Source: a virus. Taken from it: a stretch of 35,787 bases of DNA. Position 1 is the stretch's first letter, and each line of letters begins with the position of its first letter. Below are positions 11,282 through 29,021 of this stretch, piece after piece. The translations under genes were made by a program, and so were the position numbers. The notes below the pieces were generated by a model, which saw only the letters and a program-made list of their open reading frames with translations, did no database searches and was not told the DNA's origin. The stretch covers positions 1 through 35,787 of IMG/VR virus record IMGVR_UViG_3300027649_000001, one strand, 5' to 3'.

Positions 11282-11706
11282 TTGCAGAAGAAGTTATACA
11301 AGTCATTGATGGAACATTGGATGACATTGAGAACTTTAACGAGATTGCGTTGGAGCATTGGGAATATTTCAAGAATAAAAAGCCAATGTTCAACAAGGAT
11401 TATCTTGGTAGTTTACGTGTTGCAATAGCCAAGGATGAGGAAAAGTCAGTTGGGTATGTTTTCTATATGTTTTATAGAAGCCCCTATCATGATGAAATGT
11501 GGTGTCAGGTTGATATGTTTTTTTTATTGCCATCACATCGCGGGAATGGCACAGGAAGAAAAATGTTTGAACTTGTTGAAAAAGTTGCAAAGAGCAATGG
11601 GTGCAAAAAACTTATTACAAGTTATAACTTAAAAGAGTCTTTAGAAATGTTTTACGAGAAACTTGGTTTTAATGCTACTCATGTAGCGGTAGCAAAGGAG
11701 ATTTGA
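11278..11706 (+). CDS. GNAT-family N-acetyltransferase (142 aa)
   Basis: I chose the ATG at 11278, which overlaps the preceding stop, over an upstream GTG. The acetyl-CoA-binding motif A is present at about residues 79-95: VDMFFLLPSHRGNGTGRKMF, with the RGNGTG loop. Motif B-like ESLEMFYEKLGF lies near the C-terminus. A lone acetyltransferase in the middle of virion genes is found in several phages, where it may modify a host or virion protein; its substrate is unknown. It is more AT-rich in codon choice than the adjoining tail gene. Confidence 0.88.
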   Translation: MIAEEVIQVIDGTLDDIENFNEIALEHWEYFKNKKPMFNKDYLGSLRVAIAKDEEKSVGYVFYMFYRSPYHDEMWCQVDMFFLLPSHRGNGTGRKMFELVEKVAKSNGCKKLITSYNLKESLEMFYEKLGFNATHVAVAKEI

Positions 11707-25927: not shown

Positions 25928-25947
25928 GGGGCTTGCGCCCCGTTTTT
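25928..25947 (+). promoter_or_regulatory. GGGGC/GCCCC hairpin with T tract, between the first two leftward genes
   Basis: Arms at 25928-25932 and 25937-25941 enclose TTGC, and five T follow at 25943-25947 on the + strand. As drawn it would stop + strand transcripts, which have no gene here. On the leftward mRNA it is a hairpin without a U tract, and could slow or process that message between the first and second genes. Confidence 0.5.
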
Positions 25948-26569
25948 AAACAGATTCCATTTTTCTCCAAGAAGTTGAACTTATCCAGCCATTGAGTGTT
26001 TTTATTCCATTACCAAATGTGTAATAAACCCTAGCACCTGTTACATGAGTACAGGTATAAATTAAATTGTTACGAGATTTTTTTTCACCTCTAAAAATTG
26101 GTGTTGGTGCTACTTTTTTTCCAACTTCAGTCAATGGCTTGCCATGATATTCATTAGCAATATTTGCCATTGTTTCAATAAATGTTTTGCCAGCACTTGC
26201 ACGATTGCGTAATTCCCAAACCATTTGATCACGGGCATGGCGTTGGTCATAAGTAGTTGCTTCTGCATAAGGGATAGTTACTTTTTGGTTGTAGCGACCA
26301 GTAACAACAACTGCTGGCAACAATTTGCCAATTACCACTTGTTCTGCTTTGGCAAGCAATTCTGGAATTTCTGCGCTAATGTCAGCAATGATTTTGTCGG
26401 TCTGTATACGGCTAATTTGGATAGGTGCAAAACGCTCACCAGAGCAAACACCATTGAACCAACCATGTTCTACTGTGTAACCATGTTTTGCCATAGTGCC
26501 GTTCTTAACTGCTTGTTGTTTGCCACAGCATTGGCAGTTACCTCTGATTTGATTTTTTTCGTTTGTCAT
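25946..26569 (-). CDS. Conserved zinc-binding-type phage protein, first leftward gene (207 aa)
   Basis: Start is ATG 26569, behind AAGGAAAC; an upstream start would enter the operator region. A zinc-like N-terminus has GNCQCCGKQQAVKNG, then KHGYTVEHGWFNGVCSG (Cys and His spacing). A helical region follows (DQRHARDQMVWELRNRASAG), then a C-terminal strand-rich part. I recall similar phage proteins with the KHGYTVxHGxFxGVC pattern, without an assigned function. Being first behind the controlled promoter, it is probably an immediate-early host-interaction protein. Confidence 0.75.
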   Translation of the reverse strand: MTNEKNQIRGNCQCCGKQQAVKNGTMAKHGYTVEHGWFNGVCSGERFAPIQISRIQTDKIIADISAEIPELLAKAEQVVIGKLLPAVVVTGRYNQKVTIPYAEATTYDQRHARDQMVWELRNRASAGKTFIETMANIANEYHGKPLTEVGKKVAPTPIFRGEKKSRNNLIYTCTHVTGARVYYTFGNGIKTLNGWISSTSWRKMESV

Positions 26570-26637
26570 TTTGTTTCCTTCGTTTAGTTGACCTTGCGGC
26601 GTGATGAACAACAACTCATTTTGCTGTCCATGTAAGA

Positions 26638-26646
26638 ATTCTAGCA
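26638..26646 (-). promoter_or_regulatory. Predicted leftward promoter, extended -10 (TGCTAGAAT on the - strand)
   Basis: Read on the - strand this is TGC then TAGAAT, an extended -10 element; the -35 region is weak. Start would be near 26631, leaving a leader of about 60 bases before the ATG at 26569. The element lies inside operator O1, so a bound repressor would block it. Confidence 0.55.
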
Positions 26647-26656
26647 AAAAACTAGA
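26640..26656. promoter_or_regulatory. Operator O1 (TCTA-N9-TAGA)
   Basis: A 17-bp inverted repeat. TCTA at 26640-26643 pairs with TAGA at 26653-26656. It is the most symmetric of the three copies (TCTAG and CTAGA arms) and overlaps the leftward -10. Its centre is 21 bases from that of O2, two helical turns, so proteins on both sites would lie on the same face. Confidence 0.75.
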
Positions 26657-26660
26657 GGTT

Positions 26661-26677
26661 TCTAGCGGTTTGATAGA
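26661..26677. promoter_or_regulatory. Operator O2 (TCTA-N9-TAGA)
   Basis: A second 17-bp copy: TCTA at 26661-26664, TAGA at 26674-26677. The dyad extends outward by two more bases on each side (TT and AA). It covers the -35 region of the leftward promoter. Confidence 0.75.
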
Positions 26678-26717
26678 AATAATTGAAAATAATTGCTATC
26701 GGTATCCCTAATAGGGT

Positions 26718-26746
26718 TTGCACCTATATCTACAGAGTTCTATCTT
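26718..26746 (+). promoter_or_regulatory. Predicted rightward promoter (TTGCAC, 17 bases, TATCTT)
   Basis: A -35 TTGCAC at 26718-26723 and -10 TATCTT at 26741-26746 are 17 bases apart. The start would be near 26753, only about 14 bases before the ATG of the HTH gene, with no Shine-Dalgarno. The -10 lies inside operator O3. Confidence 0.6.
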
Positions 26747-26755
26747 TCTGCTAGA
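26739..26755. promoter_or_regulatory. Operator O3 (TCTA-N9-TAGA)
   Basis: A third 17-bp copy: TCTA at 26739-26742, TAGA at 26752-26755. It covers the rightward -10 and the likely transcription start. This gives autorepression of the HTH gene if that protein is the binder. Confidence 0.75.
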
Positions 26756-26766
26756 CTCGCTACCCT

Positions 26767-26988
26767 ATGAACATACCTCACATTTCCCCCGAAGAACGCA
26801 GAGAGTTGGCTGAAAAGGTTGGACTCTCAGAACAATATATCTACCAATGCCTGACAGGAAGGCGAGAAATGAGTGCTTGGCAGGCTGTCTGGGTTGAGCA
26901 GGAATCTGGTGGCAAGATCACCAGAAAGATGCTCTGTCAGGGTAGTTGGCAAGCGATTTGGCCTGAACTGGTGGAGGCACAAGCATGA
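26767..26988 (+). CDS. Cro/YdaS-like helix-turn-helix regulator (73 aa)
   Basis: A compact DNA-binding protein. ELAEKVGLSEQYIYQCLTGR at residues 13-32 has the exact helix-turn-helix shape of Cro and YdaS proteins: short first helix, GLS turn, then a recognition helix ending in TGRREM. The C-terminus is CQGSWQAIWPELVEAQA. It lies just downstream of three TCTA-N9-TAGA operators and is the best candidate for binding them. No other repressor gene is seen. Translation must use a very short leader without Shine-Dalgarno. It overlaps the primase gene by 4 bases. Confidence 0.85.
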   Translation: MNIPHISPEERRELAEKVGLSEQYIYQCLTGRREMSAWQAVWVEQESGGKITRKMLCQGSWQAIWPELVEAQA

Positions 26989-29021
26989 GCAGTCTTACAA
27001 ACATATTCCCCAACGGCTTTGCGGCGGCGACAGAGAGCCAAGACTTAGTGAGTCCCATCGAGGGATTCACCAAGCATTGTGAGGCACAAGGGCTGGTGAT
27101 CAGAGACTTGATCGCAGATGGTGAGATACATCGAGTGCCTCACATATCGTCTAAGAAGGGTGCAGTTGATGGTTGGTATATCTTGCACCTAAGTGGCAAG
27201 ATTCCTGTGGGTGTTTGTGGCTGTTGGAAGGAGCCAACCTTTGAGTCCAAGTGGATGGCAGATATTGGGCGCAATATGTCCTTCTCTGAACGCTTGGAGC
27301 ATGACAAGTTGATCGCTGAGATCAGAGCCAAGCGAGAGGCTGACAGGCTTGCCAGCCAACAGGTGGCGGCTGAGAAGGCAGAGGATGAGGTTTCTACATA
27401 CGCAGACGCAAGTGCAGACCATCCGTATTTGGTTAGGAAAAGGATTGAGCCTCACGGGATCAAGATTGATCGTGCTGGCAGACTCGTTGTGCCTGTGATT
27501 GATAACCAAGGTGAAATCTTGAGTTACCAAACAATTGACGCAGAGGGAAACAAGCGGTTCTTGAAGGGTGGCAAGATTGAGGGTGGTTTCTATGAACTCA
27601 GAGGAAATCGCAAGGTGATCTTCATTGGTGAAGGGTTCGCAACCTGTGCGAGTATTCACCAAGCAACAGGGTTCACAACTCTGGTGGCGTTTGATTGTGG
27701 AAATCTCGCCAAGGTAGCTAAGAGTGCCAAGGAAATGTTCTTGGGGTCACGGATCGTTATCTGTGCAGATAATGATCAGTTCACCGAAGGAAACCCTGGC
27801 ATTACCAAAGCAAAAGCGGCGGCTAGTCTGGTGTTTGGGGAAATTGTGTATCCAACATTCAATGAGTCTGATCTGCCTTCTAAGCCAACAGACTTTAATG
27901 ACTTGCACACCTTACAGGGAATAGAGGCAGTCAAGGAACAGATCGAGCGTGTGGCTCTTCCTGCCATAGACAAGTTGGCGTTTGAGTTCACCAGAGCAGA
28001 TAGCTTGGAGTTGACAGAGATAAAGTGGGTGGTAGATGATTACATCGAGGCAGATAGCTTGGCACAGGTGTTCGGAGATCCAGGCGGTGGTAAGAGTTTT
28101 GTGGCCATTGATCTGGCCTGTTGCGTTGCAACTGGTAAACCTTGGCATGGGCATGATGTCAAACAAGGTAGTGTGTTCTACATCGCTGGTGAAGGTCACA
28201 ACGGATTAGCCAGAAGACTGAAGGCATGGCAGATTGGTAACGGCACATCTTTAGCTGGTGTTCCTCTCTACAAGTCCCATCGTGCGGCTCAGTTGTACGA
28301 TGCAACAGAGGCGGCAGTTGTGGCTGAGTCGATAAAGCAGTTGTCAGCAGAGGCTAATTGCATACCAAGCATGATTGTGATTGATACCCTAGCCAGAAAT
28401 CACGGAGGTGACGAGAACAGCACACAGGATATGAATGCGTTTATCCAGCATCTCGATGTCTACTTAAGACAACCTTGGAAATGCTGTGTCATGGTGGTTC
28501 ACCACTCAGGCGTGGCAGACAAGGATCGCTCCAGAGGCTCCACAGCCTTGAAAGGCGCATTGGATGCGGAATACAAGTGCCAGTTGGATTCAGGCACCAA
28601 AACCATAGCGTTCGAATCTAAGAAGATGAAGGATGCGGAAATGCCAAGTCCTAAGAACTTCCAGATCACCCAAGTCGATCTACCAATCAACAACAAAAAC
28701 GGGATGCCAGTTAAGGGCGCATATCTGACAGCGGTAGACATTTCGGGATTGGTTAGCCAAGTCCAAAAGAAGACTTACCTCTCGCCAAACCAAAAGCAAG
28801 TGATGGAATGCTTGGTGATGCTAGAGGTCAGTTTGTTTCAGAATCACCAGTTAAGACCAGTTGGATACGATGAGTGGAGAGACTCAGCCAAGGAGCATGG
28901 AGTTAAGAACAATAGATTCTGGGAAGTAGTAAAAAGTATGATAAATAAAGAAATGGTGATTGAGGTAGATGGTGGTTATAAGAGCAGAAATAGCCAGCCA
29001 AGTGAGGTAAAGTTTGATTGA
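26985..29021 (+). CDS. Toprim primase / RepA-type helicase fusion (678 aa)
   Basis: Two enzyme halves are seen. A Toprim primase domain carries IFIGEGFATCASIHQATG (catalytic Glu216) and VICADND near residue 261. A RepA/AAA-type helicase has Walker A GDPGGGKS at about 364-371 and Walker B MIVIDTLAR at about 462-470. A C-terminal winged-helix-like region follows from about residue 600 (LSPNQKQVMECLVMLE). I see no N-terminal zinc finger of the DnaG kind. This layout is found in plasmid and phage replication proteins and would synthesise primers and unwind DNA at the origin, recruiting the host polymerase. Confidence 0.92.
   Translation: MSSLTNIFPNGFAAATESQDLVSPIEGFTKHCEAQGLVIRDLIADGEIHRVPHISSKKGAVDGWYILHLSGKIPVGVCGCWKEPTFESKWMADIGRNMSFSERLEHDKLIAEIRAKREADRLASQQVAAEKAEDEVSTYADASADHPYLVRKRIEPHGIKIDRAGRLVVPVIDNQGEILSYQTIDAEGNKRFLKGGKIEGGFYELRGNRKVIFIGEGFATCASIHQATGFTTLVAFDCGNLAKVAKSAKEMFLGSRIVICADNDQFTEGNPGITKAKAAASLVFGEIVYPTFNESDLPSKPTDFNDLHTLQGIEAVKEQIERVALPAIDKLAFEFTRADSLELTEIKWVVDDYIEADSLAQVFGDPGGGKSFVAIDLACCVATGKPWHGHDVKQGSVFYIAGEGHNGLARRLKAWQIGNGTSLAGVPLYKSHRAAQLYDATEAAVVAESIKQLSAEANCIPSMIVIDTLARNHGGDENSTQDMNAFIQHLDVYLRQPWKCCVMVVHHSGVADKDRSRGSTALKGALDAEYKCQLDSGTKTIAFESKKMKDAEMPSPKNFQITQVDLPINNKNGMPVKGAYLTAVDISGLVSQVQKKTYLSPNQKQVMECLVMLEVSLFQNHQLRPVGYDEWRDSAKEHGVKNNRFWEVVKSMINKEMVIEVDGGYKSRNSQPSEVKFD

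Follow-up and report, generated by a model that had tools for sequence, protein, structure and literature searches.

How would a phage use a lambda-like control region if it shows neither an integrase nor a CI gene? This question was raised by the initial annotation of the window, namely, the whole stretch of 35,787 nucleotides analysed here (positions 1 to 35,787 of IMG/VR record IMGVR_UViG_3300027649_000001), in which three copies of the dyad TCTA-N9-TAGA were noticed between the leftward and rightward early gene blocks. In this study, the dyads, the promoters, the leader RNA and the adjacent HTH gene were compared with those of relatives and of known systems. We consider it highly likely that, of a CI/Cro switch, this phage retains the Cro half alone, with the HTH protein acting as a Cro-type early repressor through the three sites, O1 to O3.

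Megablast of the region against cultured phages returned no match, and the analysis was therefore built on IMG/VR and on genome contigs. About 140 IMG/VR loci were retrieved using the HTH protein and the primase as queries. The main set comprised 58 distinct control regions with HTH proteins at least 64% identical (L040 excluded), which represent related lineages, over which counts are not independent. The sites and their positions and conservation were established by direct computation, as were their association with the HTH gene and their presence in prophage CI/Cro regions. No study of this control region was found in the published literature. The features of the window are listed in Table 1.

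Table 1. Coordinates of the control region features and flanking genes in the window
Feature	Position	Strand	Basis or remark
PL operon gene 1, PHROG 17208 (unknown function)	25946..26569	-	Profile match; differs in many relatives
Two-hairpin RNA leader of the PL transcript	26591..26631	-	Conservation; compensatory changes in first stem
Predicted PL extended -10 (TGC-TAGAAT)	26638..26646	-	Sequence and conservation; expected start near 26631
Operator O1 (TCTAGCAAAAAACTAGA)	26640..26656		Covers leftward PL -10 and spacer
Operator O2 (TCTAGCGGTTTGATAGA)	26661..26677		21 bp from O1, over PL -35 position
Operator O3 (TCTATCTTTCTGCTAGA)	26739..26755		On rightward promoter PR
Predicted PR extended -10 (TGC-TAGACT)	26749..26757	+	9 nt before HTH ATG
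YdaS/Cro-type HTH protein, 73 aa, proposed repressor	26767..26988	+	PHROG 35, YdaS profile, fold
TOPRIM primase-helicase, PR operon gene 2	26985..29021	+	4-bp overlap with HTH gene

The three 17-bp dyads lie exactly where they were first placed (26640, 26661 and 26739), within a divergent gap of 197 bp between the leftward ATG (26569) and the HTH ATG (26767), and O3 ends 12 nt before the latter. TCTA-N9-TAGA occurred four times in the window against 0.27 expected from dinucleotide shuffles, and none of 100 shuffles reached four; two such sites within 130 bp were seen in none of 1500 first-order Markov windows. The only match beyond the gap, at 11462, sits within an ORF and has no inner G/C pairs, and was judged a chance occurrence rather than an operator. 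The dyads are thus real, but their half-sites are longer than initially described: as refined from the relatives, the site is TCTAGC-N5-GCTAGA on sequence comparison. With this consensus at up to two mismatches, the 35.8-kb record has no sites other than O1 to O3, and each of the three departs from the ideal palindrome by one mismatch. Another dyad, CCCTAATAGGG, is present at 26706-26716 between O2 and O3 and reads AAACCCTAATAGGGTTT in several relatives; it is kept in part of the clade and has no candidate binder.

Comparison of the same gap across relatives revealed conserved dyads at both PL and PR in all 58 control regions. O1 lies on the leftward -10 in 58/58 with zero to one mismatch, and O3 on the rightward -10 in 58/58 with one to two mismatches, at -27 or -28 from the HTH ATG. 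A second leftward site, O2, occurs in 46 of the 58, where it covers the -35 position at a distance of 21 or 22 bp from O1. The O1–O3 distance ranges from 73 to 100 bp; the sites have therefore been kept, and the intervening DNA has not, with changes in the flanks as well. When 20 relatives were scanned whole, the true pattern gave two to four sites each, mainly in the control region, and the reversed pattern gave none. Some relatives have extra sites, which lie in the leftward block beyond the helicase gene (L032, L033 and L035-L038) or directly upstream of the ATG of the terminase large subunit (L028, 11423; L101, 10185; L103, 10214; L107, 10262; L134, 10231). The position of the latter, ending a few bases before the ATG, suggests that the same regulator may act on a late promoter in those relatives. 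The window has neither the post-helicase nor the pre-terminase site.

The putative promoters PL and PR were assigned from conservation and spacing in relatives; a generic sigma-70 scan of the region found no promoter. The initial placement of two dyads 21 bp apart over a leftward promoter and of the third over a rightward -10 agrees with this assignment, O1 covering the -10, O2 occupying the -35 place and the right half of O3 reading TAGACT. The leftward -10 in relatives consists of an O1 half-site plus its flank and reads TAGAAT or TAGATAAT. In 34 of the 58 relatives, this -10 is preceded at 16 bp by a TTGAC[A/G/C] hexamer, which the outer half of O2 overlaps where both occur. PL of the window has no recognisable -35, and the group to which the window belongs has a poor -35 and a more complete O2 dyad. 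The rightward -10 reads TAGACT in 49 and TAGAGT in 9 of the 58 relatives, and a Shine-Dalgarno-like 4-mer precedes the HTH ATG in 1 of 59. The end of this -10 lies 8–9 nt from the HTH ATG in 58/58, which makes a leaderless or nearly leaderless HTH (Cro) message probable. TATCTT in the left half of O3 was also considered as the PR -10 and was dropped, given that TAGACT keeps both its place and its distance.

The first hairpin of the RNA leader is the expected start of the leftward transcript. In the window, this leader consists of an 11-bp stem, CAC and then GCC-GCAA-GGU, and across relatives it comprises a hairpin of 8–11 bp, CAC and a second, short hairpin whose loop is mostly of the GNRA type. 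Compensatory changes occur at several pairs of the first stem among 75 distinct sequences, a set filtered by motif only, and their counts lean to paired states because they were drawn from individual folds. About 90 control regions conserve the leader, whichever HTH type they encode, and the gene that follows it varies strongly; the matches listed by the motif scan included many unrelated chance matches and were filtered by script and by eye. In position and layout, with two stem-loops just downstream of PL, the leader resembles HK022 putL, an RNA of about 73 nt that folds into two long stems and binds RNA polymerase (PMC9378689). However, its second stem has only 3 bp and its structured part spans about 41 nt; given this short stem and the lack of a match in an Rfam search with the leader, membership of the HK022 put type is not claimed. 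A leader peptide from the ATG at the leader 5' end was dropped because the frame changes between relatives. The first-gene slot of the PL operon (25946-26569) is hypervariable and differs between phages with near-identical control regions.

As initially proposed, a Cro/YdaS-like HTH protein is encoded by the gene that opens the rightward early operon, which diverges from the leftward operon. The protein matched PHROG 35, 'transcriptional repressor', at 6e-7, and Pfam YdaS at 2e-6 with 27.9 bits, which is below the 30-bit cut-off. Its best solved relative, by sequence and by fold, is YdaS/Cro of CP-933P (PDB profile match, 3.5e-19; Foldseek, 6e-4). The fold comparison was performed with a model of pLDDT 89; a single-sequence model of pLDDT 61 was poor and was discarded. 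In many relatives, genes that by sequence appear to encode DNA cytosine methyltransferases lie between the HTH gene and the primase (L090, L091, L112, L114 and L128).

Across the loci compared, the sites and the YdaS/Cro-type HTH gene go together. Two to three sites were present in 84/84 control regions with this gene and in 0/9 sister regions with the same leader but another HTH gene, all deduplicated by sequence and drawn from lineages that are not independent. Homologs with the recognition helix EQY[IL]YQ, including the Cro proteins of Rhodoferax and Polaromonas (47-57% identical overall), mostly have CTAGC- or CTATC-type dyads upstream, and homologs with other recognition helices have other dyads. 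The sites are absent from L041-L043, where the HTH is 58% identical, fused and out of the control position. There it follows a GIY-YIG-like (weak T5orf172) domain in a fusion protein (L041; L042, 5671-6213; L043), and an unrelated HTH gene upstream of it holds the control position. Four loci (L284, L297, L314 and L341) carry the same RNA leader with another HTH gene (MMNLEEIK..., HTH_3) and no TCTAGC sites; regulator and operators look as if they had been swapped together as a cassette.

The HTH protein very probably binds the three sites, which would then be its cognate operators. There is a slim chance that the main binder of the dyads is another protein, such as a host regulator or the repressor of a resident prophage, and that the HTH protein acts elsewhere, considering that its binding to O1–O3 is predicted by comparison and that sites of this type are probably also bound by prophage CI-like proteins. 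A host regulator, however, would not explain why the sites come and go with the HTH gene, and binding by a prophage CI is compatible with binding by Cro, since known switches share operators between both.

Prophage-type counterparts are found in the Burkholderiales loci L150-L153 (Rhodoferax, Polaromonas), which share with the window the operator type and a homologous Cro; a divergent CI-like gene faces Cro in these loci, with same-type sites in between, which in L152 are a poor fit to the consensus. The CI-like protein of L153 (Polaromonas sp. OV174) has an S24 domain, and about 33 kb beside its gene carry integrase, tail, capsid, terminase, replication and antirepressor genes. L153 is considered a prophage because phage genes, including those for integrase, capsid and terminase, lie beside CI. 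Its PR, TTGACT-N16-TAGAAT, lies under two sites 22 bp apart, which is the layout found on PL in the apparently lytic clade. In the window, neither a divergent CI-like gene as in these loci nor the S24 domain and integrase of L153 were found. No tyrosine integrase, S24 domain or second HTH_3 match was found in the 18 records of the window and 17 relatives, serine integrase and parAB having no models of their own in this search, and the prophage CI proteins had no relatives in any locus of the clade. The initial statement that integrase and CI are not visible thus stands. Its description of the region as lambda-like was borne out for the Cro half and for the repeated operators at PR and PL; a CI gene and integration functions were not found, and a two-state decision switch is unsupported because no CI, integrase or second HTH_3 was found in the 18 records.

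A full lysis–lysogeny switch would require a repressor of the CI type, together with functions for integration or plasmid maintenance, that went unrecognised or lie outside the contig. The operators are indeed common to true CI/Cro prophages, several small genes have no family match, and the contig may be incomplete, such that a missing gene could lie outside it. This alternative is nevertheless very improbable, considering that the 17 relatives, which are of similar length, yielded none of the sought domains either, that searches with the prophage CI proteins gave no match in the loci of the clade and that Cro is faced by a variable non-HTH gene. The simplest history would be that CI was lost, or that cro and its sites were captured from a temperate phage.

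Under the preferred reading, in which only the Cro half is kept, the 73-aa protein would be made early from PR, probably off a leaderless message, and would bind the TCTAGC-N5-GCTAGA dyads as a dimer. With O1 and O2 filled, both the -10 and the -35 position of PL would be occupied and the leftward recombination operon shut off, and filling of O3 would shut off PR, thereby silencing the HTH gene itself and the primase operon. Early expression would then come as a pulse ended by a timed shut-off, with negative autoregulation and without a lysogeny decision; in some relatives, the regulon may extend to the post-helicase and pre-terminase sites. The protein has the YdaS/Cro fold and sequence, its gene stands first in the operon, and putative operators lie over both divergent promoters, as expected of a Cro-type repressor; binding, the dimer state, the order in which the sites are filled, repression and the leaderless start are inferred. 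It is hardly likely that the protein is instead mainly a PL activator, for which PL of the window without a -35 and O2 about 38 bp upstream of the expected start would be suitable, or a toxin, as the Pfam name 'YdaS_toxin' implies, given that O1 and O3 overlap -10 elements as fits repression, that most relatives have a good TTGAC -35 and that YdaS of CP-933P is a Cro analog for which the toxin idea was rejected (PMC8630535, PMC9986795).

The closest characterised system is the immunity region of CP-933P in E. coli, with YdaS (Cro) and PaaR2 (CI) (PMC8630535; 8co2, 8c7k), whose YdaS is homologous to the HTH protein and footprints over and represses the two divergent promoters of its region (PMC8630535). 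In both systems, Cro is first in the rightward operon, operators lie over divergent promoters, and one regulator gene is leaderless, namely, the CI gene in CP-933P and, by prediction, the Cro-type gene in the window. However, CP-933P has CI and CII partners and GTTTAGTAA half-sites, whereas the window has TCTAGC half-sites, neither partner and a different operator layout, with two on PL and one on PR. The cI-Cro region of lambdoid mEp043 has a Cro 39% identical to the HTH protein, a divergent layout and three dyads in the gap, but it contains cI and cII, and its TTACCT...GGTAA sites all lie between cI and cro. Mycobacteriophage D29, a lytic phage, retains the operator sites of its temperate relatives after loss of the repressor and is homoimmune with them (PMC5712189). 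It resembles the window phage in having kept operators without the repressor, but its repressor/stoperator system is unrelated, its working integrase is kept and its deletion is recent, whereas a whole Cro-only clade is found here. Idiomarinaceae phage 1N2-2 and Alteromonas phage PB15 share the genome plan of the window, with a leftward recombination block, a Cro-type HTH gene followed by a TOPRIM primase and no CI at the divergent junction, but their primases are only about 32% identical and their gaps have no TCTAGC sites.

The control region is a variation on the known CI/Cro theme, with Cro and operators and without a decision switch. It is possible, though doubtful, that these phages share operators functionally with resident Comamonadaceae prophages, such that a prophage CI would bind and silence PL and PR of an incoming phage and the phage Cro would unbalance the prophage by binding its operators. 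If so, the apparently lytic clade would still be inside the immunity network that it left by losing CI, and it could escape by exchanging the HTH gene and operators as a cassette, an exchange of the kind suggested by the nine sister regions. The ties between apparently lytic phages and Burkholderiales prophages through shared operators make mutual immunity testable, and a concrete operator sequence for this YdaS/Cro subfamily makes binding directly testable. The cassette swap, with the same leader, another regulator and no such operators, would be a non-lambdoid parallel to heteroimmunity. Our results point to an operator-controlled early switch without lysogeny across uncultured freshwater phages.
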